Shown: in pieces, positions 34,526 through 64,000 of the stretch
How positions within the stretch are numbered: the first letter of the stretch is position 1
Layout: every line of letters starts with the position of its first letter
NCBI RefSeq assembly: GCF_013409935.1
Contig: NZ_JACCCO010000002.1
Coordinates: 186,001-250,000, forward strand
Source: Streptosporangium sandarakinum
GTDB lineage: Bacteria > Actinomycetota > Actinomycetes > Streptosporangiales > Streptosporangiaceae
Direction of reading: 5' to 3'
DNA length: 64,000 nucleotides
Translations under genes and position numbers: made by a program
The notes under the pieces: model-generated
What the model was told of the DNA's origin: nothing
The model's database searches: none
Seen by the model: only the letters and a program-made list of their open reading frames with translations

Positions 34526-34558
34526 AAGATCGCGCGACCGGAATGGAGTTGATCGCCC

Positions 34559-48284: not shown

Positions 48285-49577
48285 TCACACCAGGTAGCGC
48301 AGCCACAGGTACGGCGTGGCGACCGCGACGGTGGCGAAGGTGACGACGAGGCCGTACTTGGTGAACTCCCAGAAGCTGATCGGCGTCCGGTTGCGCGCGG
48401 CGATGCCGAGGACGACCACGTTGGCCGCCGCGCCGACCGCGGTGGCGTTGCCGCCCAGGTCGGCGCCGAGGGCCAGCGCCCACCACAGCACCTGCGCCGG
48501 GCCGTTGCCGCCGTTGGCGTTCACCAGCTCGGCGACGATCGGGCTCATGGTCGCAACGTAGGGGATGTTGTCCACGATCGCCGAGATGACGGCGGAGATC
48601 CACAGCAGGCCCAGCGTGGCCACCCCCAGGCGGCCCTGGGTGGCCTCGACGGCGGCCTGGGAGACCTGCTTGATGACGCCGGTCTCGACCAGCGCGCCGA
48701 CCATGACGAAGAGCCCGGCGAAGAACACCAGGGTGGGCCACTCGACCTCGCGGATCGCCTCCTCGGTGGTGACCCTGGTGACCGCCACCAGGATCCCGGC
48801 GCCGAGGATCGCCACCACCGACGGCTCGTAGTGCAGCACCGGGTGCAGGACGAAGGCGGCCAGCACCAGGACGAGCACCGTGAGGCTCTGCCACAGCAGC
48901 CGGCGGTCGGCGATGGCCTCGCGCTCGTTCAGCTGCATGATCTCCGCGGCGCGCTCGGGGTCGTAGACGAACGCCCTGCGGAACAGCAGGCGGCACAGGC
49001 CGATGAACACGACCATCAGCACCACCGCCAGCGGCGCCAGGTGGACGAGGAAGTCGTTGAAGGTCAGCCCGCCGCGGCTGGCGATGATGATGTTGGGCGG
49101 GTCGCCGACCAGGGTGGCGGCGCCGCCGATGTTGGACGCCATGGCCTCGGCGATGAGGAACGGCGCGACCGGCAGCGCGAGCCGCTCGCACACCAGGAAC
49201 GTCACCGGGGCGATCAGCAGGACCGTGGTGACGTTGTCCAGCAGCGCCGACGCGAGCGCCGTGATCACCAGGAGCAGCACCATGAGCCGGAAGGGGCGGC
49301 CCCTGGCCCGTTTGGCGGCCCAGATCGCCAGATACTCGAAGACGCCCGTCTGTTTGAGCACCCCGACGATGATCATCATGCCGAGCAGCAGGAAGATGAC
49401 GTTCCAGTCGATCCCGGAGTGCTCGGAGAAGAACGCGGCCCGGCCGTCGGTGGCGTGGATGACCAGCATGATGCCGGCTCCGCCGAGCGCCGCCGCGACG
49501 CGGTTGACCTTCTCGGTGGCGATCAGCGCGTACGCGACGAGGAAGATCGCGACCGTCAGCCACGCGGTGACCGTCAC
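48285..49577 (-). CDS. ArsB/NhaD-family ion permease
   Basis: A 430-residue membrane transporter of the ion-transporter superfamily (ArsB/NhaD, CitMHS-like), about 11 helices. Signature segments are [55 protein letters not shown] and the mirrored repeat [40 protein letters not shown]. By family it exports or exchanges anions or protons/Na+; the exact ion cannot be told. GTG 49577 overlaps the CBS gene stop as GTGA, so the CBS protein probably regulates it. Confidence 0.88.
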
Positions 49578-50017
49578 GACGAGAGCACCCGGCCCAGCAG
49601 CCTGGTCAGCAGGACGGCTCCCAGCAGGCGCCCCTCGTCCATGACCGCGACCAGCGGGCTGGAGGTGCGCGCCATGAGCGCGGCCACCTCCAGCACGGTC
49701 GCGTCGGGGTCGGTCACCGGCAGCTCACGGGGGTCGTCCGGCATGCAGTCGCGGACGGTGCGCCCGGCCAGCGACCGCAGGAACGCGTCGGCGTGCGCCT
49801 CGTCCACCACCCGGGCCAGCGCGGGATCGTCCAGGCAGTAGCGCGGCACGGCCTGGCGCAGCACCGCGGTGGCGGGCAGCACGCCGGCGGGCGAGCCGTC
49901 GGCGTCGACGACGATCAGCGCCAGCAGGTGCCGGTCGGCCACGATCCGGGCGGCGTCGGCCGCCGGGGCGTCGAGAGGGATGGTCGGGAACTCGCTGACG
50001 AGGTCGCGGGCGCGCAT
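49574..50017 (-). CDS. CBS-domain protein coupled to the permease
   Basis: A 147-residue protein with two CBS motifs ([37 protein letters not shown], and [30 protein letters not shown] with [10 protein letters not shown]). A CBS pair normally binds adenine nucleotides and gates transporters or enzymes. The stop overlaps the permease start as GTGA, consistent with control of that permease. ATG 50017 was chosen as the canonical MRARDL start; GTG 50077 gives 20 more residues without similarity and is possible. Confidence 0.82.
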
Positions 50018-50129
50018 CGGATGCACCGGCACTTTCGGGGTCGACGACGGAAGCGCCGACCAGACTTCCCGGCTCACCCCGCCGGATAACCTATCAAGCC
50101 GACGCGGAACGACTTCGGAGGGGCCGGGC

Positions 50130-50969
50130 TCAGCGCTCCGGCGGGCCGGGGACCACGATCAGCGGGCAGGCGGCGTGGTGGATCAGCGAGTGGCTCACCG
50201 AGCCGAGCAGCAGGCCGCCCAGCTCGCCGCGCCCGCGTGACCCCACGACCAGCAGGTCGGCCCGCGCGGACAGGTCCCTGAGCACGGCGACCGGGTGGCC
50301 CTGCTCCACCTGCTCGATGACCTTGACGTCCGGGTGGCTCTCGCCCCGGCCGGCCAGGGCCTCGGCCAGTGCCCGCCGCTCGCTCCCGGCCGCCGCGCGC
50401 ACCTGGAGCGGGACGGCGGGCCGTCCCCAGGCGTGGACGGCCCGCAGCGGGGCGCCGCGCAGGGCCGCCTCGGTGAAGGCGAGGTCGACGGCCGCCGCGC
50501 CTTCCGGGGAGCCGTCGACACCGACGACCACCTCGCCGCGCGAGTGGGCGGGCAGGTCGCGCACGATGGCCACCGGGCAGGGGGCGCGGCCGGTCACGCC
50601 GAGCGCGACCGAGCCGAGCAGCATCCCCCGGAAACCGCCCAGCCCGTGGCTGCCCACCACCAGCAGCTCCGCCTCCCGGGCGGCCTCCAGCAGCGCGCTC
50701 CGGGGCTCGCCGGGCAGCAGCTCCGTGTCCGTCTCGACGCCGCCTCCCTCCTCCTCCACTCGCCCCAGCGCGTCGGTCAGCGTGGCGGCGGCCCCGTCGC
50801 GCATCCACCGGCCCACGTCGGCGTACGGGGCGTCCTCGGCCATCTGAAGCGGCCAGGCCGGCATGACGTGCACGATGCGCAGTGCGGTCCGGCGCAGGCG
50901 GGCCTCCTGGACCGCCCAGCCCACGGCGTCCAGAGCGGCGCGCGAGCCGTCGGTTCCCACCAGGATCAC
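50130..50969 (-). CDS. Tandem universal stress protein (UspA x2), no. 1
   Basis: A 279-residue protein of two UspA domains. Each ends with the ATP-binding signature G-x2-G-x9-G-S: GSHGLGGFRGMLLGSVALGV in the first and GSRGRGELGGLLLGSVSHSL in the second. USPs of this group bind ATP and protect cells under hypoxia or stationary phase. GTG 50969 is preferred because GGGGAGG precedes it by 4 bases; the frame is open to 50990. A 9-base minisatellite lies upstream (51014-51148). It lies 112 bases before the CBS/permease pair and may head that transcript. Confidence 0.9.
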   Translation of the reverse strand: MILVGTDGSRAALDAVGWAVQEARLRRTALRIVHVMPAWPLQMAEDAPYADVGRWMRDGAAATLTDALGRVEEEGGGVETDTELLPGEPRSALLEAAREAELLVVGSHGLGGFRGMLLGSVALGVTGRAPCPVAIVRDLPAHSRGEVVVGVDGSPEGAAAVDLAFTEAALRGAPLRAVHAWGRPAVPLQVRAAAGSERRALAEALAGRGESHPDVKVIEQVEQGHPVAVLRDLSARADLLVVGSRGRGELGGLLLGSVSHSLIHHAACPLIVVPGPPER

Positions 50970-51013
50970 GGTGTCCTCCCCTGCTCTCACGGGCCCGCGG
51001 CCCGGTCGTACGG

Positions 51014-51148
51014 TGTTCCCCCGGCTTCCCGGTTCCCTCGGTTTCTCCGGTTCCCCTGATTCCCCTGGTTACCCCGGCTCCTCCGGGCTCCCTGATTCCC
51101 CCGGTTCCCCGGTTTCCCGGTTCCCTTGGTTCTCCCGGCTCCCCGGGC
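51014..51148. repeat. Nine-base minisatellite
   Basis: About 15 tandem units of 8-9 bases around the consensus GGTTCCCCT occupy nearly the whole gap between the nitroreductase stop and the universal stress protein start. The frame on the minus strand would encode a GEPGEP-like stretch, but there is no start or domain, so it is noncoding. Such an array can change copy number. Confidence 0.8.
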
Positions 51149-51191
51149 CGCCGGCCGGTGATCGCCGCGCGAGCCGGCGGGGCCCGGCGGG

Positions 51192-52193
51192 TCAGCGCGG
51201 CGGGCGTTCCTCCAGCACCTCGGAGACCGGCCGCCGGGTGGCGGCGTTCTCGTCGAAGGTGAACCCGAGGCGCATGATCATCTGCGGGTACTCGCCGGAC
51301 AGCAGCTCCTGCCGGATGAACTCCCGCAGGTGTTGCGCCTCCAGCGCCTGGGTGTGGAAGGCGGCGCTGAGGCCGTACGCCGAGGCGTGCAGCAGCACGC
51401 GCTGCAGGGCCTGGCCGGCGGTGACCCAGTCCTCGCGGGAGTCGCCGCGCGTGGTCAGCACGGCCACCGTGCCGGTGGAGGTGCCGAAGAACTGGTCGCT
51501 GTCGTTGCCCCAGGGGTGGCCGTGGGCGTAGTCGCGCTGGGCGAAGTGCGGGCGCGTCCGCCGGGGCTCGCGGGGGTAGCCGCCGGCCGGGACGCCGTCG
51601 CCGCGCGTGCTGCCCGGCGGCCGGGCCCAGCGGACCACCTCCAGGGAGAACAGCCGGTCCTGCGACTGCACGTCCTGGGCGGCGCAGGTGAGCGCGGCGA
51701 GCACCCGGACGGCGGCCTCGGCGCGGATCGGCGTGAGCCGCGCCCCCTCGGCGGCGGCCTGGGCGGCCAGCGTCTCCTCCAGGCGCTCGGGGACGGGCAG
51801 CTCGGTGAACCCGGCGCGGTGGGTGCGGCGGCGTTCGATCTCGGCGTGCAGCCGGACGGTGTGCTCGTCGGGGACGACCGTCCCGCCGACCCGCACGGTC
51901 GCCACCAGGGCGGGACGGTCGGGATCGGGCAGGATCCGCACGAGGGGTTCGTGGCCGAGGCGGCGCAGCGTGAGCCGGACGTTCATCAGGGCCGCGCCGC
52001 AGCTGATCAGCAGCTCGCGGCCGGCGGCGTCGCCGATCCGCAGCCTGCGGTCGCTGTCGGCGCGCATGGCGATCTCGTCGCCCTCGACGGTGAAGGACCA
52101 CGGCTGGGTGTTGTGCACCGACGGCGCCCACACCGCGGCCTGGACCGCCGCCCTCGTCGCCGAGATGATCTCCTCCATCGGGTGAGCGCTCAT
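51192..52193 (-). CDS. Acg-family nitroreductase
   Basis: A 333-residue protein of the Acg family (the nitroreductase-fold group of Rv2032, a member of the Mycobacterium DosR regulon). The first half binds flavin-like ligand (AAVWAPSVHNTQPWSFTVEG, ADSDRRLRIGDAAGRELLIS, CGAALMNVRLTLRRLGHEP). The second half has DWVTAGQALQRVLLHASAYG and EYPQMIMRLGF. Acg binds FMN but seems to have lost nitroreductase activity in mycobacteria. ATG 52193 follows GGAGGA by 6 bases. A DosR-like palindrome lies 134 bases upstream, after the stop of the ATPase gene. Confidence 0.9.
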   Translation of the reverse strand: MSAHPMEEIISATRAAVQAAVWAPSVHNTQPWSFTVEGDEIAMRADSDRRLRIGDAAGRELLISCGAALMNVRLTLRRLGHEPLVRILPDPDRPALVATVRVGGTVVPDEHTVRLHAEIERRRTHRAGFTELPVPERLEETLAAQAAAEGARLTPIRAEAAVRVLAALTCAAQDVQSQDRLFSLEVVRWARPPGSTRGDGVPAGGYPREPRRTRPHFAQRDYAHGHPWGNDSDQFFGTSTGTVAVLTTRGDSREDWVTAGQALQRVLLHASAYGLSAAFHTQALEAQHLREFIRQELLSGEYPQMIMRLGFTFDENAATRRPVSEVLEERPPR

Positions 52194-52310
52194 GACCGTC
52201 CTCCGCCGGGCGTCCACGCGGAGGCGGTCCGCGCGCCCGTGCCATCCTTGGTCGTCATCATCGCCTCCTGTGTCGATCGTCCCCGGGCGGCGGCCGGGCG
52301 GTCAGCGGCG

Positions 52311-52340
52311 AAAGTCCCCGATGGCAGGGACCATGGCCCC
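52311..52340. promoter_or_regulatory. DosR-like box upstream of the Acg nitroreductase
   Basis: GGGACCATGGCCCC at 52327-52340 is a nearly perfect 14-base palindrome resembling the DosR/DevR box; AAAGTCCCC (a GGGGACTTT half-site) lies beside it at 52311-52319. Placement is before the Acg-like gene, whose mycobacterial counterpart is a DosR target. Binding is inferred. Confidence 0.5.
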
Positions 52341-52417
52341 GGTACGGGCCCGTCCCCCACCGGGCACCCGGTCCGGCCGCGCCGGGGCCCGGCCGCCGCC
52401 CCGGACCGCGGCGGGGG

Positions 52418-54724
52418 TCACGCCGGGGAGCCGGCGCCGAGGGCGAGGGAGAAGTACGCCTCCTCCTCCTGGTCGAAGTGGAGCAGCAGCACCGCGTGCA
52501 GGCCGTACAGGCAGGAGCGCAGGTCGTCGAGCTGCTCCGGGCGGAGCCCGGCGTTCCCGGCGAGGTCGAGGTGGCGGCCCAGCCGGCGGACGAGCCGCTC
52601 GATCTCGGCGTGCGCCCTGCTCATCGTCATGGTCACCTCCGGGCCGCCGAGCACCTGCCCCATCGCCGGGTACAGCGCACGCTCCTCGGCCCGCTCGTGC
52701 GGGAGCAGCCGTCCGGTGAGGAAGCGGTGGACCTCCCGCAGACGCCCGAGATCCTCGGGGCCGGGACGTTCGCCCAGTTCGTCGGCGGTCCGGCGGATCA
52801 GCTCCAGCGGAGGCCGCAGCGAGGAGTGGTCCAGCTCGAAGCGGCGCAGCAGGGACTCGGTGGCGGCGTCCACCGCCGGGCGGGTGCCGCGCGCCGAGCG
52901 CAGCGCCCGCAGCGCGTTGACGATCACGGCGATGTCGATGGCCTCCTGCAGCAGCGCGCCGGCCGCGGGCGGCAGCATCCCGGCCGCGGCGGCGGCCATG
53001 GCGAGCAGTGACATCGCCATCCCGGCGGCGGCGCTCTGTACGGCGATGCGCCGGGAGCGGCGGGCGACGTCCATGGCGTCGGCCAGGCGGTCCAGCCGGT
53101 CGGCGGTGAGCACCACGTCGGCGGCCTGGGTGGAGGCGGCCGAACCCCGGGCGCCCATGGCGACCCCGACGTCGGCGGCGGCCAGGGCCGGGGCGTCGTT
53201 GACGCCGTCGCCGACCATCACGGTCACCGCCCGGCCGGTCTCCCGCCGTACCGCCGCGACCTTGTCCGCGGGCGTCTGCCCGGCCAGCACCCGGTCCACG
53301 CCGAGGACCACGCCGACGCTCTCGGCGACCTCGGGGCGGTCACCGGTGAGCATGACCACCCGCTCGATCCCGGCGGCGCGCATCCGGCGCAGGGTCCGCG
53401 CCGCGTCGGGCCGCACGGTGTCGCGGAGCAGGATCACCCCGACCGGGTCGCCGTCGGCGGTCACCCAGACGGTCATGGCGCCGTCCAGGGCGGCCCGCGC
53501 CCGCTGGACGCGTTCCCACTCCGGGTGGGAGGGGGCGGTGGCCTTGCCGACCTCGACGCGGCGGCCCTCCACCAGCCCCTCGGTGCCGGTGCCGGGCCGC
53601 TCGACGACGCCGGACGGCTGCGGCGGGGAGACGCCGCGCTCCCGGGCGGCGCGGACGATCGCCTCGGCGAGCACGTGGGACGACATCCGGTCCACCGCGG
53701 CGGCCCAGAACAGCACGTCACCGGGGTCGGCGCCGGGCGCGGCCACGACGCCGGAGACGTGCGGCCGGCCCGAGGTCAGCGTTCCGGTCTTGTCCAGCAC
53801 CAGCGTGCGGGCCTGCCCGAGCCGCTCCAGCGCCCCGCCGCCCTTGACGACCACGCCGTGGCGGGCGGTGCGGGACAGGCCGGAGGCGATCGCGGCGGGC
53901 GCGGCCAGCAGCAGCGGGCAGGGGGTGGCGACGACCAGCACGGCGACGGCGCGGACCGGGTCACCGGACAGCCACCAGGCCGTCCCGGCCGCGAGCAGCG
54001 TGACGGGCAGGAACCAGGCGGCGAAGCGGTCGGCGAGCCGTACGACGGGGGCGCTCGCCGCCTCGGTCTCCCTGGCCAGCCGCACGACGCCGGCGTAGGC
54101 GCTGTCGGCCGCGGTGCGGGTGGCGCGCAGGTCGAACGCGGAGCCGGCGTTGACAGTGCCGCTGCGCACCGGCCGGCCGGCGCCGTACTCCACCGGCAGC
54201 GACTCGCCGGTCAGCGCCGACTCGTCCAGCAGCGCCGAGCCGGCCGCGACCACGCCGTCGGCGGGGACGGTCTCGCCCGCGGGGACCATCAGCAGGTCGC
54301 CGGGGCGGACCACGTCCACCGGGACGAGGCGGGGCTCGCCGTCCTCGTAACGCCGGGCCGAGCGGGGGGCGCGCTCGTACAGCGCGGTGAGGTCGCGCCG
54401 GGCGCGGCGCAGCGCGTGCTCCTCCAGGGCCCGGCCGGTGGCGAGCATCACGCCGATCAGCGCGCCGGCGAGGTACTCCCGTACGGCGAGCGCGCCGCCC
54501 AGGGCGAGGACGGCGATCGCGTCCACGCCCATCCGGCCGCCGCGCAGCGCCGAGACCACCCACCACGCCGCGGGCGCCAGGGCCACGGCGGTGACCACCG
54601 CCCACACGGCATCGGCCGCGGTGACCTCGCCCGCCAGGTACAGCGCGCCGCCGCACACCAGCCCGGCCACGGTGACCGCGAGCAGGACGGCGGTGGCCCG
54701 ATGCGCGGCGCGGCCGGGGTTCAT
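52418..54724 (-). CDS. P1B-type metal ATPase fused to hemerythrin domain
   Basis: A 768-residue P1B-type cation ATPase followed by a C-terminal hemerythrin-like domain. The pump part (about 1-600) has no N-terminal metal-binding domain. It shows the A-domain LDESALTGESLPV, the intramembrane site ATPCPLLLAAPAA (CPx as T-P-C-P), the phosphorylation motif DKTGTLTSG, MLTGDRPEV and GDGVNDAPAL. Residues 627-768 carry the diiron ligand pattern of hemerythrins (HSS, PHERAEERALYP, SRAHAEI, LHAVLLLHFDQEEEAYF). The fusion suggests metal transport linked to O2, NO or iron sensing; the ion is unknown. ATG 54724 overlaps the preceding universal stress protein stop as ATGA. Confidence 0.9.
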   Translation of the reverse strand: MNPGRAAHRATAVLLAVTVAGLVCGGALYLAGEVTAADAVWAVVTAVALAPAAWWVVSALRGGRMGVDAIAVLALGGALAVREYLAGALIGVMLATGRALEEHALRRARRDLTALYERAPRSARRYEDGEPRLVPVDVVRPGDLLMVPAGETVPADGVVAAGSALLDESALTGESLPVEYGAGRPVRSGTVNAGSAFDLRATRTAADSAYAGVVRLARETEAASAPVVRLADRFAAWFLPVTLLAAGTAWWLSGDPVRAVAVLVVATPCPLLLAAPAAIASGLSRTARHGVVVKGGGALERLGQARTLVLDKTGTLTSGRPHVSGVVAAPGADPGDVLFWAAAVDRMSSHVLAEAIVRAARERGVSPPQPSGVVERPGTGTEGLVEGRRVEVGKATAPSHPEWERVQRARAALDGAMTVWVTADGDPVGVILLRDTVRPDAARTLRRMRAAGIERVVMLTGDRPEVAESVGVVLGVDRVLAGQTPADKVAAVRRETGRAVTVMVGDGVNDAPALAAADVGVAMGARGSAASTQAADVVLTADRLDRLADAMDVARRSRRIAVQSAAAGMAMSLLAMAAAAAGMLPPAAGALLQEAIDIAVIVNALRALRSARGTRPAVDAATESLLRRFELDHSSLRPPLELIRRTADELGERPGPEDLGRLREVHRFLTGRLLPHERAEERALYPAMGQVLGGPEVTMTMSRAHAEIERLVRRLGRHLDLAGNAGLRPEQLDDLRSCLYGLHAVLLLHFDQEEEAYFSLALGAGSPA

Positions 54725-55608
54725 GCCCGCACGACCGCCACCGGGCAGCGGGCGTGGTGCAGCACCCCTCGGCTGACAGAGCCCAGGATCGCCGAGCCGA
54801 TCGTGCCCATGCCCCGGGAGCCCACGACGACCAGGTCGGCGTCCGCCGACGCCTCGACGAGGGCGTCGACGGGGTGGGCGCTGGAGACGTCCTCGATCAC
54901 CTGCACCTCGGGGAGCTTCTCCCGCCAGGCGGTGAGCTTCTCCCGCACCATGCGGTCCTGGTAGCGGCGGACCTCGTCCATGTCGTAGGTGACGTCGGGC
55001 GCGAAGGCGTGCACCGGGAGCTGCCAGGCGTGGACCGCGCGCAGCGGGCAGCCGCGCGCCCTGGCCTGCTCGAAGGCGTAGGCGAGGGCGGGGTCGGACT
55101 GCGGGGAGTCGTCGACGCCGACGACGACCTCGCGGCGGTGCTCCTCGCCGCCGGGGCGGACGACGACCACCGGGCAGCGGACGTGCCCGGCGACGTAGGT
55201 GCTCACCGAGCCGAGCAGGGCGCTGGCGAAGCCGCCCAGGCCGCGGCTGCCGAGCACGATCTGGGCGGCGTCCGCGGCCTGCTCGCACAGGCTCCTCGTC
55301 CGGGACCCCTCGATCAGCTCGGTGGTCACCTCCAGCGTGGGCTGGCGGGCGCGCGCCTGGTTCTCGGCCTCCTCAAGGACGCGGCGGCCGCTCACGACGA
55401 GCGTTCCCGGCCATTCGGGGGCGGAGAACCGGGGGATGTCGTACGGCCCGCGCTCCACGACGTGCACGAGGCGCAGCGGCAGCCGCCGCCGGAAGGCGTC
55501 GTCGGCCGCCCACCGGACCGCCCTGGCGGCGTCGGGTGAGCCGTCCACCGCGACGATGACGGGGCCGGCCGCTCCAGGGACCGGCCGGGCGGTGTCGTTC
55601 GAGGACAT
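54721..55608 (-). CDS. Tandem universal stress protein, no. 2
   Basis: A 295-residue protein with two UspA domains: GPVIVAVDGSPDAARAVRWA ... VLGSRGLGGFASALLGSV, and VVVGVDDSPQSDPALAYAFE ... VGSRGMGTIGSAILGSVSRG, both with the ATP-binding G-x2-G-x9-G-S pattern. Its stop overlaps the start of the ATPase-hemerythrin gene (ATGA), so the two are made together. A DosR-like box (GGGACTTTCGGCCC) lies 85 bases upstream in the promoter gap. ATG 55608. Confidence 0.93.
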   Translation of the reverse strand: MSSNDTARPVPGAAGPVIVAVDGSPDAARAVRWAADDAFRRRLPLRLVHVVERGPYDIPRFSAPEWPGTLVVSGRRVLEEAENQARARQPTLEVTTELIEGSRTRSLCEQAADAAQIVLGSRGLGGFASALLGSVSTYVAGHVRCPVVVVRPGGEEHRREVVVGVDDSPQSDPALAYAFEQARARGCPLRAVHAWQLPVHAFAPDVTYDMDEVRRYQDRMVREKLTAWREKLPEVQVIEDVSSAHPVDALVEASADADLVVVGSRGMGTIGSAILGSVSRGVLHHARCPVAVVRA

Positions 55609-55692
55609 GGTCTCCTCCTCGGGTAGGGGGCCGTCTGTTCAAGCGTCGGCGCGGGGCGGCGGGGCTCCCAGAGCCGCTGGGCCCGCCGCCGG

Positions 55693-55706
55693 GGGACTTT
55701 CGGCCC
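55693..55706. promoter_or_regulatory. DosR-like box upstream of the stress protein/ATPase operon
   Basis: GGGACTTTCGGCCC matches the mycobacterial DosR consensus GGGACTTTNGGCCCT over its full 14 bases. It lies 85 bases before the start of the two-gene unit. This is the best match of the three in the window. Function inferred from motif and gene content. Confidence 0.65.
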
Positions 55707-55840
55707 GTTTCCCGGCCGGGGCCGTCGCCGGATCCCCTCCGGCCCGGAAAAGCCCCGTCGCGCGGCCCATCTCCCGGCCCGGCCCGCCCCGCTTCGCGAC
55801 CCGTGTCCCTCCGGGGAACGCCCGCCGGTCCGCGCGGGTC

Positions 55841-56743
55841 TCAGTCGCGGTCCTTGACCACCGCCACCGTGCATCCGGCCCGCCGGAGCAGCTCCCGGCT
55901 GACCGAGCCGAGCAGGCGGCTTCGCACCGGGCCGAGCCCGCGCGAGCCGACGACCAGCAGCCGGGCCCGGTGGCTGCCGGGCAGCAGCACCGGCAGCGGC
56001 GGGCCGCCGACCGTACTGGTCGTGACGGTCACCCCGGCGGTTCCCCGGGGCAGCGCGGTGACGGCCTCGGCGACCCACCGCTCCAGCTCCTCCCCCCGCC
56101 TGCCCGGCCCGTCCCGGCAGGCGTGGATCGCGTGCACCGGCAGCCGGTGCCCCCGGGCGTACTCGAGTGCGAACCGCAGGGCCGCCAGCGAGCAGTCCGA
56201 CCCGTCCACCCCGACCACGACGGTCTCCGCGCCCCCCGCCGCCTCGGCGGTCCCGCGTACGGCCAGCACGGGGCAGGCCGCGTGCGTGGCGACATGGGCG
56301 CTCACCGAGCCGACGAGCAGCTCTGCCATGCCGCCGCGGCCCCGGGTGCCGAGCACCAGCATCTCCGCCGTCCGGCCGAGCGAGACCAGCTCCGTCCCGG
56401 GATCCCCCCGCAGCAGCGCCGACCGCACGGCGCGGCCGGGCAGCAGCCGCTCGGCCAGTTCCACGCCCTCCGACAGGATGAGCCCGGCGAGGCCGCGTTC
56501 GCGCGTGGTCACCGCCGCCTCGCGCTCGGCCCGGGGGCCGTCCCACACGTGGCAGACGGTCAGCCTCCCGCCGCGCACCCCGCACGCCCGCGCCGCCCAC
56601 CCGACGGCGGCGCGGCTCTGCGGGGACCCGTCGAACGCGACGACGATCTCGCGTCCCGCGCGGGGGCGGGACGCGGCGCCGTACGCGACCCGGGCCAGGA
56701 AGTGGATCCGCGCGGCGAGCTGCGCGTCAACGCCATGAGTCAT
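55841..56743 (-). CDS. Tandem universal stress protein, no. 3
   Basis: A 300-residue two-UspA protein. Domain 1 ends LVLGTRGRGGMAELLVGSVS and domain 2 ends VVGSRGLGPVRSRLLGSVS; the second has a longer, Pro/Gly-rich centre. An unusual N terminus (MTHGVDAQLAARIHFLARVA) precedes domain 1. ATG 56743 overlaps the stop of the CBS gene by 17 bases, so it is the last gene of a three-gene unit (USP no. 4, CBS protein, this protein). Cysteines are scattered, not paired. Confidence 0.9.
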   Translation of the reverse strand: MTHGVDAQLAARIHFLARVAYGAASRPRAGREIVVAFDGSPQSRAAVGWAARACGVRGGRLTVCHVWDGPRAEREAAVTTRERGLAGLILSEGVELAERLLPGRAVRSALLRGDPGTELVSLGRTAEMLVLGTRGRGGMAELLVGSVSAHVATHAACPVLAVRGTAEAAGGAETVVVGVDGSDCSLAALRFALEYARGHRLPVHAIHACRDGPGRRGEELERWVAEAVTALPRGTAGVTVTTSTVGGPPLPVLLPGSHRARLLVVGSRGLGPVRSRLLGSVSRELLRRAGCTVAVVKDRD

Positions 56744-57233
56744 GCGGCAGCACCGGGACCAGGCGGAACATCCCCGTCATGAGCTCCGGTGGCTCGCCTT
56801 CGCCGGTCTCCTCGGCGATCCGGCCGGCCACCGCCCGCAGGATGTCGGTGGTGGTCACCATCCCCACGATGGTCCCCGACTCCCCCAGGACCGGGACCGC
56901 GGCGGTCCCGGCGCCGATCATGGCCGCCGCGGCCTCCCGCAGCGGCGCGCGCGCCGAGATGCGGGGGCAGCGGTGCCCGGCGATCAGGTCCTGGACGCGG
57001 ACCCTGGACTGCTCGGCCGGGCCGCCCGACCAGCGGGCGGTGATGTCCTCCCGGGTGAGGACGCCCACCAGGTGGCGGTCGCCGTCCACGACCGGCAGGT
57101 GGTGGACGCCGGCCCGGCGCATGATCTCCCAGGCCAGCAGCGGGGACTCGTCGGGGTCGACGGCGACGAGCGTCCGGCTCATCACCTGGCCGACCGTGAG
57201 GTCGCGGACGTCCGACGGGCTCTTCACGTCCAT
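56727..57233 (-). CDS. CBS-domain pair protein (Hrp1-like)
   Basis: A 168-residue protein with two CBS domains: LTVGQVMSRTLVAVDPDESPLLAW ... HHLPVVDGDRHLVGVLTRED, and VQDLIAGHRCPRISARAPLR ... AAVPVLGESGTIVGMVTTTD. It resembles Rv2626c (Hrp1), a DosR-regulated secreted or cytoplasmic CBS protein of mycobacteria. The Cys in HRCPRI is not shared by all. ATG 57233 overlaps the stop of the upstream USP by one base (TGATG). It sits between two universal stress proteins in a coupled operon. The long open frame to 58043 is a shadow. Confidence 0.87.
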   Translation of the reverse strand: MDVKSPSDVRDLTVGQVMSRTLVAVDPDESPLLAWEIMRRAGVHHLPVVDGDRHLVGVLTREDITARWSGGPAEQSRVRVQDLIAGHRCPRISARAPLREAAAAMIGAGTAAVPVLGESGTIVGMVTTTDILRAVAGRIAEETGEGEPPELMTGMFRLVPVLPHDSWR

Positions 57234-58102
57234 CACGCCTCCCCGGGGGCGCGTACCACGGCGACGGGGCAGTGGGAGTGGTGCAGCACGCCGTGGCTCA
57301 CCGAGCCGAGCAGGGCGGAGCCGGCGCGGCCCAGCCCGCGGGAGCCGACGACCACCAAGTCCGCGTTCCGCGACGCGTCGCGGATGACCGCGACCGGGTG
57401 CCCGCAGACCGCCGTCTCGGTGACCTCCACCTGCGGGTACTTGTCCCGCCACGGGGCGAGCGCCTCCTGGGTGATGTGCCGCTCGGAGGCGGCGATCTCC
57501 TCGATCAGCGGCGTGTAGGCGGTGGCGCCCGGTCCCACGACGGGCATCTGCCAGGTGTGCACGACATGCAGCCGGGCTCCGCGCCGGGCGGCGTCCTCGA
57601 AGGCGTACTCCAGGGCCGCCGCCGAGTGGGCCGAGCCGTCGAAGCCGACGACGACCTCGCCGAACGGCCGCTCCCTCGGCTCGCCCTTGACCACCACGAC
57701 GGGAACGCTCACACGCCCCGCCAGGGCCAGGGAGACCGAGCCGAGCAGCAGGCCGGTGAACCCGCCGCGACCTCGGCTGCCGACCACGACCTCCCGGGCG
57801 TCGGCGGCCTCGCGGCGCAGGACCTCCACGGTCCTGCCCGGTTCCAGCACGCTGTTCACCTCCAGCTGCGGGGCGTGTTCGTGGGCCAGGTCGACGGCGC
57901 CGTCGAGCATCCCCCGGCAGTACGCGGCCATGGAGTCGTGGAAGCCCGGCGGGGTCTGGAGCGGGAGGTCGTAGGTCCACGGCTCGCACACGTGCACGAT
58001 CCGCAGGGCCCAGCCTCGCCGGACCGCCTCGTCGGCGGCCCATCGAACCGCGGCCCGCGCCGGAGCGGAGCCGTCCGCACCCACCAGTACGTGCGCTGTC
58101 AT
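57233..58102 (-). CDS. Tandem universal stress protein, no. 4
   Basis: A 289-residue two-UspA protein starting MTAHVLVGADGSAPARAAVR. Domain 1 ends VVVGSRGRGGFTGLLLGSVS and domain 2 ends VVVGSRGLGRAGSALLGSVS, both with the ATP-binding pattern. ATG 58102 has an excellent AAGGAGGGTGA site; the open frame to 58180 is unsupported. A DosR-like box is 81 bases upstream. First gene of the USP-CBS-USP unit. Confidence 0.93.
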   Translation of the reverse strand: MTAHVLVGADGSAPARAAVRWAADEAVRRGWALRIVHVCEPWTYDLPLQTPPGFHDSMAAYCRGMLDGAVDLAHEHAPQLEVNSVLEPGRTVEVLRREAADAREVVVGSRGRGGFTGLLLGSVSLALAGRVSVPVVVVKGEPRERPFGEVVVGFDGSAHSAAALEYAFEDAARRGARLHVVHTWQMPVVGPGATAYTPLIEEIAASERHITQEALAPWRDKYPQVEVTETAVCGHPVAVIRDASRNADLVVVGSRGLGRAGSALLGSVSHGVLHHSHCPVAVVRAPGEA

Positions 58103-58182
58103 GTCACCCTCCTTGGGTCCGTCACCGTCCATCCGACACCCGGGCCCGGGGCCGCCGCAGCGGCCGAAGGACCCGTCCACCC

Positions 58183-58196: not shown

Positions 58197-58271
58197 GGGT
58201 GCCGGTACCGTCCGTGTGCCCGTCCGTGTGCCCGGCGCGGGGCGGCGCGGGCGCGCCGCGGCCGCGCACCC

Positions 58272-59183
58272 TCACTCCTCCCCCGGGGACGGCACCACCG
58301 CGACCGGGCAGTGGGCGTGGTGCAGCACGCCGCGGCTGACCGAGCCCAGCACGAGCGAGCCGAGCCCGGCCAGGCCGCGCGAGCCGACGACCACGAGGTC
58401 GGCCTGAGCCGAGGCCTCGCAGAGGGCGGACACCGGGTGGGCGCAGATCGACGTCTCGGCCGTCTCCACCTGGGGGTGGTCCCTGATCCACGACTCCAGC
58501 ACCCCGCGCACCGCCTCCCGGCCGGAGGCGAGGGCGTCCTCGGCCAGCGACGAGCAGCCGGCCGCGTACGGGGTCATCACGGGCGCGTGCCAGGCGTAGA
58601 CCACGCGGAGGCGGGCGCCGCGGCGGGCGGCCTCGGCGAAGGCGTACTCCAGCGCGGCGCGGGACTCGGCCGACCCGTCGAAGCCGGCGACGACCTCGCC
58701 CTGCACGGCCTCCTGGGCGCCGCGCACCACGACCACGGGACAGGCCGCCCGGCCGGCCAGGCCCACCCCGACCGACCCGACCAGCATGCCGGCGAAACCG
58801 CCCAGGCCCCGGCTGCCGACGACGACCTGGGCCGCCTCGCGGGACTCCTCCAGCAGCGTCTCGATGATCCGCCCGGTGACGAGCACGGGCGTCACCTCCA
58901 CGCCGGGCGCCTGATCGCGGGCCAGGTCCACGGCGGTGGCGAGCATCTCCTCGCAGGCGCGCGACACGCCCACGGGCGCTCCGGGCACCCGTGCGCCGGG
59001 CACCTGCGCTCCGGGCGCCTGGACACCGGGCACCTGCACGTACGGCAGGTCGTAGGCCCACGGCTCGCAGACGTGGACGACGCGCAGGCCGCACCCGCGC
59101 CGGGCGGCGTCGTCGGCCGCCCACTTCACCGCGATCGACGCCGGCCTCGATCCGTCCGTGCCGGCCACCACCTGCCCGCCCAT
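58272..59183 (-). CDS. Tandem universal stress protein, no. 5, with VPGxQ insert
   Basis: A 303-residue two-UspA protein. Domain 1 ends VVVGSRGLGGFAGMLVGSVG and domain 2 VVVGSRGLAGLGSLVLGSVS. Residues 49-72 are a repetitive insert (VQVPGVQAPGAQVPGARVPG...) encoded by a 15-base tandem repeat at 58977-59039; it replaces the normal loop between strand and helix of domain 1. ATG 59183. It follows the next universal stress protein gene by 18 bases and is the last member of the formate-dehydrogenase transcript if that reads through. Confidence 0.9.
   Translation of the reverse strand: MGGQVVAGTDGSRPASIAVKWAADDAARRGCGLRVVHVCEPWAYDLPYVQVPGVQAPGAQVPGARVPGAPVGVSRACEEMLATAVDLARDQAPGVEVTPVLVTGRIIETLLEESREAAQVVVGSRGLGGFAGMLVGSVGVGLAGRAACPVVVVRGAQEAVQGEVVAGFDGSAESRAALEYAFAEAARRGARLRVVYAWHAPVMTPYAAGCSSLAEDALASGREAVRGVLESWIRDHPQVETAETSICAHPVSALCEASAQADLVVVGSRGLAGLGSLVLGSVSRGVLHHAHCPVAVVPSPGEE
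58977..59039 (-). repeat. 15-base tandem repeat inside the universal stress protein gene
   Basis: About four units of 15 bases, each encoding five residues of the form (V/A)-(Q/R)-(V/A)-P-G, with a partial unit at the end. Located in the first domain of the gene at 58272. Copy-number change would keep the frame. Confidence 0.8.
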
Positions 59184-59201
59184 GGCTTCCTCCCGTCCGT
59201 G

Positions 59202-60203
59202 TCACCGGCCCCTGTCCCCTGCTCCCGGGGACATGCTCCCGGGGGATCCGTGCTGTCGGGGGTCCGCCGTCGGGGGCCCGCTCCCGGAGAGATCTGCTCT
59301 CAGGGACCCGCCGGGCCCGGCGGGTCCCGCGGCGGGGGGCACGACCGCGACGGGGCCGGAGGCATGCCTGACCAGGGAACGGGTCATCAGCCCCAGGTGC
59401 CCGGACAGCAGCGCCGACCGCCCGGCCCCGGCCACGAGGAGGGTCGCCTTCGCCGACGCGTCCAGCAGCGACTCCTTCGGCGCGGTGGTGCTGAGGCAGA
59501 CGTCGACGGCGACCTTCGGGTACTTCTCCTGCCAGCCGGCGAGACGCTCGTCCACCCACTCCCGGCAGACCCGGGCCGAGTCGTCGACGTCGGGCAGCGG
59601 GGCCATGGCGACGCCCCACGCCGTCAGGTGGTGCGGATGGCCGGCGTGCATGACGAGCAGCCGCAGCCGCCGCAGGGCCGCCTCCTCGAAGGCGAACTCC
59701 AGTACCTCGCCGCCGGTGGTGTCCTTCAGGCCGAGGACCACCGGGCCGGGATGCAGCGGCACGGGGATCGGGCCGGTCCCACGGGTGATGAGCACCGGGG
59801 CCCGCGCGTGGGCGGCGACGGCGGAGGCCGTGGAGCCGATCACCGACCGGGCCGGGGCGTTCCGGCCGCGGGAGCCGATCACGACGAGCTCGGCGTCGGC
59901 GGACAGCTCCACCAGCCGCCGGGCCGCGGGCCCCTCGTAGAGGTCGGTGGCCACCTCCACGATCGTGCTGCACGCCCGGGCGCAGTCGGCGCCGTGCCGT
60001 AGCACCCGCCCGGCCGCCGCCCGGCCCCGGTCCCCGGCGTCCTCGCCGGCCTCGCCGTACGGCCACTGCCAGGCGTGGACGACGGTCAGCGGAAGCCGTC
60101 TGAGCTCGGCCTCGTCCATGGCCCACTCCAGGGCCTGCAGCGAGTGGTCCGAGCCGTCGTAGCCGGTCACGACCCTGCGTCGTCTCGTCCGCGGTTTCGC
60201 CAT
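59202..60203 (-). CDS. Tandem universal stress protein, no. 6 (divergent second domain)
   Basis: A 333-residue protein. Domain 1 is canonical (RRVVTGYDGSDHSLQALEWA ... VIGSRGRNAPARSVIGSTAS). Domain 2 is degenerate: the ATP loop is AGAGRSALLSGHLGLMTRSL instead of GSRG..., so nucleotide binding may be lost there. The N terminus is basic (MAKPRTRRRRVV) and the last 40 residues are a Pro/Gly/Ser-rich tail. ATG 60203. It starts 57 bases after the formate dehydrogenase alpha gene, on the same strand, and is 18 bases from the next USP, so it is probably part of that operon. Confidence 0.88.
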   Translation of the reverse strand: MAKPRTRRRRVVTGYDGSDHSLQALEWAMDEAELRRLPLTVVHAWQWPYGEAGEDAGDRGRAAAGRVLRHGADCARACSTIVEVATDLYEGPAARRLVELSADAELVVIGSRGRNAPARSVIGSTASAVAAHARAPVLITRGTGPIPVPLHPGPVVLGLKDTTGGEVLEFAFEEAALRRLRLLVMHAGHPHHLTAWGVAMAPLPDVDDSARVCREWVDERLAGWQEKYPKVAVDVCLSTTAPKESLLDASAKATLLVAGAGRSALLSGHLGLMTRSLVRHASGPVAVVPPAAGPAGPGGSLRADLSGSGPPTADPRQHGSPGSMSPGAGDRGR

Positions 60204-60260
60204 GCTGTTCCCCTCGATGCTCCTCTCGATGCCCGTGTCCGGGGACGGCGGGCGGCCGTC

Positions 60261-63029
60261 TCAGCCGCCCCTGGCCAGCCGTACCGCCGTCACCTTGTAC
60301 TCCGGGCACGACGTCACGGTGTCGGTGTGGTCGGAGGTGAGGGTGTTGACCCCGCTTCCGGGGAAGTGGAACGCGCAGAACACCTGCCCGGGGGGCACCT
60401 CGTCGGTGAGCCGCGCGAGCAGCGTGGCCCGGCCGTGCCGGCTCTCCACGACCACCGGCGCGCCGTCGGCGAGGCCGTGCCGGGCGGCGTCGGCCGGGTG
60501 CAGGTCGAGCCGGTCGCCGGGGTCCAGCAGGAGGTTGCCCGTACGGCGGGTCATGGTGCCGGAGTTGTAGTGCGCCCAGCGCCGCCCGGTGACCATGACC
60601 AGCGGGTAGCGGTCGTCCGGCGTCTCACCCGGCGGCAGGTACGGCGGGGCGGCCAGGCGGGCCAGACCGTCGGGGGTGGCGAACCGCTCCCGGTACAGGC
60701 GCGCCTCCCCGGGGGCGGCGGGGTCCGGGCACGGCCAGGGGACGGCGCCCTCGGCGTCCAGCCGCTCGTGCGACAGCCCGGCGAACAGCGGGGCCACCCG
60801 GGCGCATTCGGCCAGCGCGGCGGCCGGGGTGGGGCAGCCGAGGTCCGCGCCGAGCGCGGCGGCGACGGCGTGGATCACCGCGAAGTCGGACATGGCCTCC
60901 CCCGGTGGGTCGAGCGCGGGGCGGACCCGCTGGAAGCGGCGGTCGAAGTTGACGAAGGTGCCATCCTTCTCCAGCCACGACGTCACCGGCAGCACGACGT
61001 CGGCGCGGCGCGCGGTCTCCGACGGGAACAGCTCCTGGCAGATCACCAGCGGGCAGGCGTCGAGCGCCTCGGCGACCCGGCCCGCGTCCGGGTCGGTGGC
61101 GCAGACGTTCTCCCCCATGATCCACAGCGCCCGCAGCGTCCCGGCGCGGGCGGCGGCGAACATCTCCGGGATACGCATGCCCGGCCGTTCCGGGACCGGA
61201 GCGCCCCAGACGGCCCCGGCCCGCCGCCGGGCGGCCGGGTCGGTGACCCTGCCGTAGCCGGGCAGCGTGTCGGGCAGCGCACCCATGTCGGAGGCGCCCT
61301 GGACGTTGTTCTGGCCGCGCAGCGGGTTGATCCCGAAGCCGCGGCCGGTGCCGACCGCGCCGCGCAGGATCGCCAGGTTGGCCAGCGCCCGCACCCCGTC
61401 TGTGCCGTGCAGGTGCTCGGTGACGCCGAGGCCGTAGACGATCGCGGGGCGCTCGGCCCGGCCGTACAGGCGGGCGGCGGCCACCAGGTCGGCGGCCGGG
61501 ACGCCGGTGAGGGCGGCCACCCGCTCCGGCGGGTAGCCGTCGAGGAGCACGGCCAGCTCCGGCAGGCCGGCGGCGCGCCGCCGCAGGAACTCCTCGTCGA
61601 TCATCCCCTCGGTCAGCAGGACGTGCGCCAGCCCGTGGAACAGGGCGACGTTGGTTCCGGGGCGGGGCCGCAGGTGCACGTCGGCGTGGCGGGCCAGCCC
61701 GACGGTCCGCGGGTCGGCGACGACCAGCCGCGTCCCCCGCTCCAGGACCTGCCGCAGCAGCCGGGCGCCGGCCACCGGGTGGGCCTCGGCCGGGTTGGCG
61801 CCGGCCAGCAGCAGGCAGTCGGCGCGCTCGACGTCCTCGAAGGCGTCGGTGCCGCCGGGCAGGCCCAGGGAGGCGGTCAGCCCGGCCGCCGAGGGCGAGT
61901 GGCACAGCCGGGAGCAGTTGTCGATGTTGTTGGTGCCGAGGACGACCCGCATGAGCTTCTGCAGCAGGTAGTTCTCCTCGTTGGTGGCCCGCGCCGAGGA
62001 GATCGCCGCCACCGCGCCGGGGCCGCCCCCGGCGACGGCGGCCCGCAGTCCCCGGGCGACGCGGTCGAGCGCCTCGGCCCAGGTGACCTCCTCCAGGCGG
62101 CCGTCGCGGCGCAGCAGCGGCCGGGTGAGACGGTCCGGTGAGCGCAGGAAGCCGTGGGCGAAGCGGCCCTTGACGCAGGCGTGGCCGCGGTTGACCGGGC
62201 CGTTTCGGTCGGGCAGCACGGCCGCCACCTCGCCGTCGCGGGTCAGCACTTCCAGCGAGCAGCCGACGCCGCAGTAGCCGCAGGTGGTGCGGGTGCGCGC
62301 GGTCACCGCCGCCCGGCCGCCGAGCGGCAGGCCGGGCTCGGTGAGCGCGCCGGTGGGGCAGGTGTCGACGCAGCCGCCGCAGGCCACGCAGTCGGAGTCG
62401 ATCCACGGCCCGCCCGTTCCCGGGGCGACGACCGTGGCGGCGCCGCGGCCGGTCAGCGTGAGGGCGAAGGTGCCCTGGACCTCGGCGCACATGCCCACGC
62501 ACCGGCCGCAGGCGATACACAGGTCGCGGTCGAGGCGGACGTAGGGGTGGCTGTCGTCCCGCCCGCGCCCGCCCGGCGCGCGGGCGGCCTCCGGCCCGAC
62601 GCCGAGCGCCCGGCACGCCCCGGCCAGCTCGCTGTCGGCGTCGCCGGCCAGGGCGCGCGGCGGCAGGCCCGCCACGATCAGCTCCACGGCCTCGCGGCGC
62701 AGCCCCGTCATCTCGCCCGAGGCGACCTCCACGGAGGCGCCGCCGGCCGCCGGGGTCACGCAGGCGGCCACGACGTGCCCGCCGGCCCGCACCAGGCAGG
62801 TACGGCAGGAGCCGGCCGGTGACAGGCGGTCGTCGTGGCACAGCGCGGGCAGCGTCGCCGGCCCGACCCCGGCGGCGCGCGCCGCGTCCAGCAGCGAGGC
62901 GTCCTCGCCCACCTGGACGACGACACCGTCCACCGCGATCTTCACCGCCGCCGCCCCGGGGGCCGTACCGGAGCCCGTCCCGGGGGCCGCCGCCCGGGGG
63001 CTCTTCGCCCGCGGCGGGCCGGGGCTCAC
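60261..63029 (-). CDS. NAD-type formate dehydrogenase alpha subunit
   Basis: A 922-residue molybdopterin enzyme of the FdsA/FdhF type that oxidises formate to CO2 (or the reverse). The N-terminal ferredoxin-like domain has CHDDRLSPAGSCRTC; then two 4Fe-4S motifs (CIACGRCVGMC and CVACGGCVDTC). The Mo-bisPGD catalytic part has a further cluster (CGYCGVGCSLEVL) and the active-site Cys in CSRLCHSPSAAGL, so it is a Cys enzyme rather than selenocysteine. The C-terminal domain starts PLVMVTGRRWAHYNSGTMTR. GTG 63029 overlaps the beta-subunit stop as GTGA; the open frame to 63653 is spurious. The universal stress protein at 60203 follows. Confidence 0.93.
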   Translation of the reverse strand: MSPGPPRAKSPRAAAPGTGSGTAPGAAAVKIAVDGVVVQVGEDASLLDAARAAGVGPATLPALCHDDRLSPAGSCRTCLVRAGGHVVAACVTPAAGGASVEVASGEMTGLRREAVELIVAGLPPRALAGDADSELAGACRALGVGPEAARAPGGRGRDDSHPYVRLDRDLCIACGRCVGMCAEVQGTFALTLTGRGAATVVAPGTGGPWIDSDCVACGGCVDTCPTGALTEPGLPLGGRAAVTARTRTTCGYCGVGCSLEVLTRDGEVAAVLPDRNGPVNRGHACVKGRFAHGFLRSPDRLTRPLLRRDGRLEEVTWAEALDRVARGLRAAVAGGGPGAVAAISSARATNEENYLLQKLMRVVLGTNNIDNCSRLCHSPSAAGLTASLGLPGGTDAFEDVERADCLLLAGANPAEAHPVAGARLLRQVLERGTRLVVADPRTVGLARHADVHLRPRPGTNVALFHGLAHVLLTEGMIDEEFLRRRAAGLPELAVLLDGYPPERVAALTGVPAADLVAAARLYGRAERPAIVYGLGVTEHLHGTDGVRALANLAILRGAVGTGRGFGINPLRGQNNVQGASDMGALPDTLPGYGRVTDPAARRRAGAVWGAPVPERPGMRIPEMFAAARAGTLRALWIMGENVCATDPDAGRVAEALDACPLVICQELFPSETARRADVVLPVTSWLEKDGTFVNFDRRFQRVRPALDPPGEAMSDFAVIHAVAAALGADLGCPTPAAALAECARVAPLFAGLSHERLDAEGAVPWPCPDPAAPGEARLYRERFATPDGLARLAAPPYLPPGETPDDRYPLVMVTGRRWAHYNSGTMTRRTGNLLLDPGDRLDLHPADAARHGLADGAPVVVESRHGRATLLARLTDEVPPGQVFCAFHFPGSGVNTLTSDHTDTVTSCPEYKVTAVRLARGG

Positions 63030-64000
63030 GGGTCCCACCCTTCGAGGCGGTCGCCGTAGGCGCGGGCGAGGCTGCGCACGGCGGCGGGGACCCGGCGGCC
63101 GAAGGCGCACAGGCTGGCCTGATCCATCACCCGCAGCAGCCGCGCGTACTCCTCGCCGGGCGGCCCGCCGTACCCGGCGATCTCCAGGCCGCGGCGGGAG
63201 CCGACGCGGCAGGGCGAGCAGGCGCCGCAGCTCTCGGCGGCGGCGAAGGCCCACACGTGGCGCAGCACGTCGCGCGGGGCCGGGCGCCGGTCGAAGGCGA
63301 CCAGGCCGGCGTGCCCGAGCGCGGCGCCGCGGGCGGCCAGATCCGCCTCGGTCAGCGGCACGTCCAGCCGGTCGGGGGCCAGGAAGCCGCCCAGCGGACC
63401 TCCGACCTGCAGGGCGGCGAGCTCCGCGCCGTCGCGCAGGCCGCCGCCCAGTTCGGTGACGATGCGCGACAGCGGCGTGCCCAACTCGACCTCGTGGCAG
63501 CCGGGGCGGGCGAACCGCTCCGACAGGCAGACCAGCTTCGTGCCGGTCTCGGCCGGGGTGCCGCGGCGGGCGTAGGCGGCGCCGCCCCGGCGCACGATCC
63601 ACGGCACGGCGGCGAGCGTCTCGATGTTGCCGACCACGGTCGGGTCGCCCCACAGCCCCTCCTGGACCGGGTACGGCGGGCGGGGCCGGGCGCAGCCGCG
63701 CTCCCCCTCCAGCCCGGCGATGAGGGCGGTCTCCTCCCCCGCGACGTAGGAGCCGGCTCCCGCGACGACGTGGACGTCGAGGCCGGCGCCGGTGCCGTGG
63801 ACGTCGAGACCCAGGTGCCCGGCGGCGTGGGCCCGGTCCACCGCGGCCCGCATCGCGGCCAGCGCCAGGGGGTACTCCGAGCGCACCAGCACCACGGCCC
63901 GGCGGGCGCCGCAGGCGAAGCAGGCCAGCGCGATCCCCTCCAGCACCCGGTCGGGGTCGGACTCCATCAGCAGCCGGTCGGCGTAGGAGCCCGGGTCCCC
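63026..64000 (-). CDS. Formate dehydrogenase beta subunit, NuoF-like (partial)
   Basis: At least 324 residues, with the N terminus beyond the right edge of the window. It resembles FdsB/NuoF, the diaphorase subunit that reduces NAD+ via FMN. Visible motifs are ACFACGARRAVVLVRSEYPL, VAGAGSYVAGEETALIAGLE and the C-terminal 4Fe-4S motif ESCGACSPCRVGSRRG with a fourth Cys in DQASLCAFGRR. Family members also have a gamma subunit (thioredoxin-like 2Fe-2S), either fused at the N terminus or encoded upstream, outside the window. Its stop overlaps the alpha start (63026-63029), so the genes form an operon. Confidence 0.92.
   Translation of the reverse strand, partial: GDPGSYADRLLMESDPDRVLEGIALACFACGARRAVVLVRSEYPLALAAMRAAVDRAHAAGHLGLDVHGTGAGLDVHVVAGAGSYVAGEETALIAGLEGERGCARPRPPYPVQEGLWGDPTVVGNIETLAAVPWIVRRGGAAYARRGTPAETGTKLVCLSERFARPGCHEVELGTPLSRIVTELGGGLRDGAELAALQVGGPLGGFLAPDRLDVPLTEADLAARGAALGHAGLVAFDRRPAPRDVLRHVWAFAAAESCGACSPCRVGSRRGLEIAGYGGPPGEEYARLLRVMDQASLCAFGRRVPAAVRSLARAYGDRLEGWDP

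Follow-up and report, generated by a model that had tools for sequence, protein, structure and literature searches.

A probable DosR/OsdR-type hypoxia island carrying a P1B-5 metal pump and a formate dehydrogenase in Streptosporangium sandarakinum

What controls a dense run of stress, redox and transport genes at one end of a 64,000-nucleotide stretch of the Streptosporangium sandarakinum genome? In this stretch (the window, C2:186001-250000 of a 7.65-Mb assembly in four contigs), genes for universal stress proteins (USP1 to USP6), CBS-pair proteins (CBSa and CBSb), an Acg-family oxidoreductase, a P1B-5-type ATPase with a hemerythrin-like domain, a permease and a formate dehydrogenase (FDH) lie together on the minus strand (Table 1), and a first-pass annotation had likened them to the DosR regulon of mycobacteria. 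The window probably holds part of the DosR/OsdR (hypoxia and nitric oxide, NO) regulon of a Streptosporangiaceae-related actinomycete. Judged by regulator, sensors, boxes and typical cargo, it appears to be in good part an OsdR/DosR regulon, for which induction is predicted: a DosR ortholog, a DevS/DosT-type kinase and boxes at Acg and at the USP2-P1B-5 pair speak for the likeness, though not for every gene.

Where is the regulator? It had been said to lie outside the window, and it does: the sole outstanding DosR ortholog (C3:1523620-1524258) sits on contig C3, not beside the island, with PPOX and USP genes close by. In a genome search it was 85% identical to the DosR of Herbidospora, with the runner-up at 40%; the Herbidospora protein (L019), a LuxR-type regulator, is closest among solved structures to DevR (3c3w, 1.1e-79), followed by VraR at 6.7e-43. 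DosR matches at 1e-80 or better are present in 15 of the 16 genomes of the genus. In the sixteenth, G007, dosR appears only as 85-88% identical fragments at or near the ends of contigs C12, C34 and C7, two of these fragments spanning the same N-terminal part; the pattern points to a break in the assembly, possibly where a gene is repeated. The window does contain a LuxR-type response regulator (31073-31774, adjoined by a long frame at 31771-34608), which was ruled out as the island's DosR: it matches VraR at 2e-50 and DevR at 1.7e-32.

Are suitable sensors present? The cluster extends past the window edge into C2:250001-270000 (L002), which holds genes for an AAA_33-domain protein, a CBS-BON protein, a PPOX protein, a GAF-GAF-HisKA_3-HATPase kinase, two further CBS-type proteins and a seventh USP (USP7); the CBS assignment at L002:12531-13232 is based on sequence alone. 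The first-pass annotation had proposed looking for a kinase just outside the window, and one of DevS/DosT type lies 8 kb beyond the edge (C2:258045-259808), amid USP, CBS and PPOX genes. Its first GAF domain (GAF-A) has the GAF domains of DevS and DosT as best solved relatives (about 1e-49), and HisKA_3 and HATPase domains were identified in this copy; a second copy, C1:224234-225955, is 69% or 73% identical to it, depending on the measure. The kinase's H125 and Y147 are spaced by 22, the same as His149 and Tyr171 of DosS, and both positions are kept in both copies; in the sections cited of PMC4082495, His149 is the proximal haem ligand and Tyr171 the ligand-discriminating tyrosine. These would be two DevS/DosT-type haem-GAF kinases, predicted to bind haem, and both would be DosT-like because the position presumed to correspond to Glu87 of DosS and Gly85 of DosT is Gly in each. 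A kinase search of named genomes gave at least 80 loci, mainly in Streptosporangiaceae and Streptomycetaceae; in the 25 neighbourhoods viewed, USP, CBS, Acg, PPOX and LuxR-type regulator genes recur, though not in all.

Do the genes carry sites for such a regulator? The OsdR palindrome AGGGCCGATCGGCCCT and its S. coelicolor sites come from Urem and colleagues (PMC5069765, as given in the sections cited). A genome-wide scan with the loose palindrome GGGNCNNNNGNCCC proved useless alone (785 sites, against 1591 for a reversed control). A matrix built from 26 published S. coelicolor OsdR sites (threshold 10) recognized 38 of 62 dosR promoters (26/31 in Streptomycetaceae and 12/31 in others) versus 129 of 3000 random stretches; these, like the 5000 stretches of 250 bp used below, were not limited to intergenic DNA. 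With the same matrix, 6 of 19 genes of regulon families in this genome had a site versus 7 of 442 others, and at 24 named loci the counts were 26/105 versus 19/206. The dosR promoters of Streptosporangiaceae mostly have GGGACCTTGGTCCCT-like boxes about 60 bp upstream of the gene, a form closer to the mycobacterial one. Because the family's own dosR promoters use a box unlike that of S. coelicolor, a second matrix was made from 23 boxes picked by eye in 26 Streptosporangiaceae dosR promoters, with this genome and its near twin G001 excluded, L016, L141 and L145 dropped, and L032, L034, L035 and all Streptomycetaceae also left out. Applied at a threshold of 8 to 0.67 Mb of this genome, including the window, it found a box in 10 of 19 regulon-family promoters versus 9 of 442 others (p=7e-11), and several of these nine adjoin a family gene or share a divergent promoter with one. 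As C1:188001-208000 was fetched partly for box matches already seen, its Rv2632c-like gene is a biased inclusion; excluding it and dosR, the counts are 8/17 versus 9/442 (p=1e-8). Within the C2 island, 5 of 11 family genes have a box; of the 273 other genes in 20 stretches chosen arbitrarily, 2 do (p=6e-7). Elsewhere in the window none of 35 promoters carries one. Outside the window, boxes precede CBSc, PPOX, USP7, dosR and others. Spacing was measured too: in this genome and six relatives, 20 of the 38 box pairs at regulon loci are 21-23 bp apart, about two helical turns, as are 17 of 27 at the 24 named loci (some of which include training boxes of the second matrix), while 400 kb of background contained no pair at the same setting and one, at 39 bp, at a looser setting.

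Within the window, tandem boxes stand upstream of Acg and a further box upstream of USP2-P1B-5 (Table 1), and there is fair to good support for assigning both to DosR from these sites. The FDH-USP6-USP5-USP4-CBSb-USP3 block probably belongs to the putative regulon as well, with some doubt, and transcription from Acg could carry on through the gap of some 200 bp into USP1-CBSa-permease. The proposal of one programme for the whole run gains support at Acg and USP2-P1B-5, but the FDH-to-USP3 block has just a weak site here and USP1-CBSa-permease none of its own.

Does the arrangement recur in relatives? Among 60 genomes including this one, the pump (E at most 1e-120) was found in 10: this genome, 6 of 15 others in the genus, 0 of 21 in the family, 0 of 4 in the order and 3 of 19 in the class. 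In all seven pump-bearing genomes of the genus a USP gene adjoins the pump, and a box scoring at least 9.5 closely precedes the pump or the adjoining USP gene (this genome and 6/6 relatives), ahead of the pair in six and between USP gene and pump in G004. When 5000 stretches of 250 bp were drawn at random from this genome, coding DNA included, 20 reached that score, as did 1 of 235 regions of an intergenic background. Since both the adjoining USP gene and the box are found in 7/7, pump, USP neighbour and control element travel together; the full cargo does not. In six of these seven genomes, all but G007, the contig with the pump also bears a DevS, at most some 51 kb away.

Several results weigh against placing the whole island under DosR. 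Among window-island genes with promoter space only 2 of 8 are boxed (versus 2/273, p=0.004): USP1, USP4, USP6, CBSa and FdhA have none (second-matrix scores around zero or negative), and the NuoEF site, at C2:250758 just outside the window, is weak (5.1). Nine of the 19 family promoters lack a box by the second matrix, DevS has none either (score -0.3), and across six genus islands the S. coelicolor matrix showed no enrichment (4/36 family genes versus 9/95 others, p=0.50). The pump is present in just 7 of the 16 genus genomes and FDH of this kind in 4, and no DevS reaching 1e-100 was found in G007. Synteny, which had been suggested as a check, holds for the pump-USP-box unit in all genus carriers but not for the block as a whole: among the six relatives' islands read, it is complete only in G001, about 98% like this genome in its island proteins and not an independent case.

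One possibility is that two neighbouring programmes are involved, with DosR acting on Acg and USP2-P1B-5 and another regulator (e.g., Crp/Fnr-type or redox) on FDH-USP6-5-4-CBSb-USP3, the two having become adjacent by gene gain. This is quite plausible, if not the arrangement we favor: the restricted occurrence of FDH in the genus and the lack of any site above 5.1 upstream of NuoEF, or of any within the FDH block, fit it. On the other hand, the FDH promoters of two relatives have site pairs 22 bp apart (scores 5.5 and 12.1 in G002, 10.1 and 10.7 in G007), the 5.1 site lies shortly before the gene both here (G000) and in G001, and in G007 FDH is also near P1B-5 and USP genes.

A general stress island for USP, CBS, metal and anion-transport functions, unrelated to oxygen and under a sigma factor or the LuxR-type regulator at 31073-31774, is unlikely. 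USP and CBS families are known to react to a variety of stresses, and that regulator does lie within the window; its closer kinship to VraR than to DevR, the lack of boxes at the 35 other promoters of the window and the DosR boxes and DevS, which point to oxygen, all argue otherwise. As for chance clustering or co-inheritance without shared control, the presence of the full block in G001 alone among the six relatives' islands read fits it, but the concentration of USP genes described next, the constant USP-pump adjacency and the box and pair-spacing statistics make it very improbable.

How is the block built? Pfam and NCBIfam searches confirmed the families and minus-strand positions of the first-pass annotation (six USPs, two CBS-pair proteins, Acg, P1B-hemerythrin, permease and FDH). 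Its label of Hrp1-like for one CBS protein did not survive: CBSb matches Rv2626c at just E=1.4e-4, far down a list in which many other CBS proteins score better, so that its nearest solved CBS-pair relative is a different protein, and the Hrp1 identity was dropped. In the downstream direction the order is NuoE-NuoF, FdhA, USP6, USP5, USP4, CBSb, USP3, USP2, P1B ATPase/hemerythrin, Acg, USP1, CBSa, permease. The fused NuoE-NuoF is a single 558-aa frame when read past the window edge, and FdhA has 2Fe-2S and 4Fe-4S domains at its N-terminus (Fer2_4 and Fer4 matches); with both Fdh alpha and NuoE/NuoF-type subunits present, the enzyme is of the NAD-linked type. USP2 has 3cis and 2jax (TB31.7) as its closest solved structures in the PDB (about 1.5e-37), and the permease did not reach the cut-off of any of the 9 listed NCBIfam models. 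Twelve of the genome's 25 Usp-domain matches are inside the window, and the clustering is far beyond chance because 14 of the 25 fall within some 29 kb (C2:236148-265039) of the 7.65-Mb genome. The tight overlaps described earlier apply to 4 of 12 junctions (4, 4, 4 and 17 bp; starts are approximate, genes having been called with our own codon-score script), but not to the gaps USP5-USP4, USP3-USP2, P1B-Acg and Acg-USP1. Because these four measure about 165-240 bp each (USP5-USP4 falls to 91 bp if USP4 starts earlier), several transcription units are suggested. The box-free Acg-USP1 gap contains degenerate tandem repeats of 17-27 bp (window 51015-51143).

Table 1. Genes and DosR-type boxes of the island within the window (positions are those of the window).
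Feature	Position	Strand	Evidence and remarks
CitMHS/ArsB-type permease	48285..49577	-	Pfam CitMHS 8.8e-97, ArsB 2.3e-25
CBSa, CBS-pair protein	49574..50077	-	Pfam CBS, 2 stretches; overlaps permease by 4 bp
USP1, tandem-domain USP	50130..50990	-	two Usp matches in C2:236148-236966
Acg-family flavin mononucleotide (FMN) oxidoreductase	51192..52217	-	NF047509 286 bits (cut-off 199); PDB Acg 2ymv 2e-26
Tandem DosR-type boxes upstream of Acg	52304..52341	.	52304 score 8.5; 52326 score 18.1; 22 bp apart
P1B-5-type metal ATPase, C-terminal hemerythrin-like domain	52418..54724	-	TIGR01525 511.8 bits (cut-off 346.25); Hemerythrin 7.5e-15
USP2, tandem-domain USP	54721..55608	-	Usp-domain matches; overlaps ATPase by 4 bp
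DosR-type box upstream of USP2-P1B-5	55692..55707	.	9.5 second matrix; 11.7 S. coelicolor matrix
USP3, tandem-domain USP	55841..56743	-	Usp-domain matches
CBSb, CBS-pair protein	56727..57236	-	Pfam CBS 4.7e-26, 2 stretches
USP4, tandem-domain USP	57233..58105	-	Usp-domain matches; alternative earlier start 58180 possible
USP5, tandem-domain USP	58272..59183	-	Usp-domain matches
USP6, tandem-domain USP	59202..60203	-	Pfam Usp, 2 stretches
FDH catalytic subunit FdhA	60261..62945	-	TIGR01591 731.7 bits (cut-off 666.25)
NuoF part of fused NuoE-NuoF (NADH-side) subunit	63026..64000	-	runs on beyond window to C2:250702

How might a DosR-type island of this kind work? From the genes, orthologs, haem-ligand positions and boxes, a course of signal, phosphotransfer, binding and induction can be proposed. 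The haem-GAF kinase next to the island and its counterpart on C1 would be off with oxygen bound and on when it is lost or replaced by NO or carbon monoxide; both would phosphorylate the single DosR encoded on C3. Phosphorylated DosR would bind palindromes of the type GGGACCTTNGTCCC, often paired 22 bp apart, and induce Acg and the USP2-P1B-5 operon within the window, the neighbouring CBS-BON, PPOX and USP genes beyond the window edge, and its own gene. The USPs and CBS proteins may then gate growth by nucleotide state, FDH may oxidize formate to provide NADH, and the pump with its hemerythrin tip may export an Fe/Ni-type metal according to oxygen or iron. A further, more tentative idea, which we regard as possible but rather doubtful, is that here the DosR switch has been rewired to an oxygen-gated P1B-5 pump and an NAD-linked FDH, with oxygen loss read twice, by the haem kinases and by a diiron domain on the pump. 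If so, formate would provide NADH and metal export would protect the resting cell, and the pump's USP neighbor and box would be expected to persist across the genus while the surrounding genes change.

The pump itself fits the P1B-5 ATPases; its metal specificity and diiron-oxygen chemistry are predicted. Its translation has TPC at residue 267, which we take to be the P1B-5 signature, and HxxxE and HxE in the hemerythrin-like domain, whose last motif is HxxxxE, not HxxxxD. The P1B-5 hemerythrin motif is given as H-HxxxE-HxE-HxxxxD, and the domain's role is called unclear, in the cited part of PMC9388753. Like the P1B-5 proteins of Acidothermus cellulolyticus and Sinorhizobium meliloti treated there, it combines a P1B core with a C-terminal hemerythrin-like domain and HxxxE/HxE motifs; unlike them, it is placed after a USP gene behind a DosR-type box. 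Literature searches found no paper on such a setting; the one on P1B-5 with hemerythrin found only that review.

How much of this is new? The kind of regulon was already known from S. coelicolor, whose OsdR/OsdK regulon, with its consolidated cluster SCO0167-SCO0219, has been in print since 2016 (PMC5069765); the discussion of that paper cites work in which low oxygen and an NO donor induced osdR and neighboring genes. In the sections cited, the two systems are alike in a DosR-type regulator, a haem-GAF kinase, a palindromic box, a box at osdR itself and clustered USP genes (8 of 11 in S. coelicolor), and the nitroreductase, PPOX, hemerythrin and zinc dehydrogenase genes among predicted OsdR targets can be counted as a further likeness. 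They differ in that the osdR-osdK operon is inside the S. coelicolor cluster, whereas here dosR is on another contig; in the presence there of nitrate reductase Nar2, with FDH, the P1B-5 ATPase and the CitMHS/ArsB permease here instead; and in the box, AGGGCCGATCGGCCCT there and GGGACCTTNGTCCC here.

The M. tuberculosis DosR (DevR) regulon, as far as described in the cited parts of PMC5309233, PMC4090907 and PMC4082495, resembles it in having USPs, Acg, Hrp1, Rv1738 and a P-type ATPase (ctpF), has two haem-GAF kinases for one DosR, as here, and includes a predicted formate-related locus at Rv0081-Rv0088. It is described as nine genome blocks (PMC5309233, cited part), which tempers the first-pass description of it as scattered and still differs from the clustered island here. 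The companion description of the genes here as consolidated is right for the window block, but dosR, the second DevS, the Rv2632c-like gene, CBS-BON and other USP genes are elsewhere on C1, C2 and C3, and a box is missing at some of those USP genes. The FDH here also departs from M. tuberculosis in being of NAD-linked NuoEF type, and to our knowledge CtpF is not a hemerythrin-bearing P1B-5 pump. The oxygen-utilisation regulon NmpRSTU of Myxococcus xanthus also includes a USP, a CBS-domain protein, a hemerythrin and a P-type ATPase, but has an NtrC-like regulator and different sensors (PMC11841059, in the sections cited): it is an analogous solution, not a relative.

Literature searches were consistent with this: none on actinomycetes was found for OsdR with formate dehydrogenase (judged by title and start of abstract), no paper for DosR with FDH, USP, Streptomyces and hypoxia, and only the M. 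xanthus paper for a dormancy regulon with hemerythrin and P-type ATPase; for DosR with Nonomuraea or Streptosporangi-, the word DosR was absent among the matches listed. Neither this system in the present lineage nor a P1B-5 pump or FDH under DosR turned up in these searches. New here, then, are the lineage and two passengers, the P1B-5 pump and FDH. The findings would add another group of actinomycetes, along with specific candidate binding sites, to the DosR/OsdR system, giving a setting outside mycobacteria for asking what dormancy-type genes do; they would also link the P1B-5 hemerythrin pump, for which PMC9388753 (part cited) calls the sensing role unclear, to a likely hypoxia regulon.

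Some boxes lie well away from the island. At L004 (C2:485001-505000), position 10792, is a strong DosR-type box (19.1), flanked on one side by a divergent M20 peptidase gene and on the other by a gene whose DoxX match is below threshold; a USP gene comes after the latter. Because this box is strong and near a USP gene, regulon genes are likely to be found about 240 kb from the island as well. A near-perfect S. coelicolor-type OsdR palindrome (16.7) occurs at L003 13078 (C2:283078), upstream of C2:282298-282891, which by eye resembles a ClpP subunit and whose promoter is not among the second matrix's best. Paired boxes at L008 (C1:188001-208000) 949-1002 are between an SPFH-type gene (named by eye) and the Rv2632c-like gene (PF08962), a family that presumably includes the mycobacterial DosR-regulon protein Rv1738.

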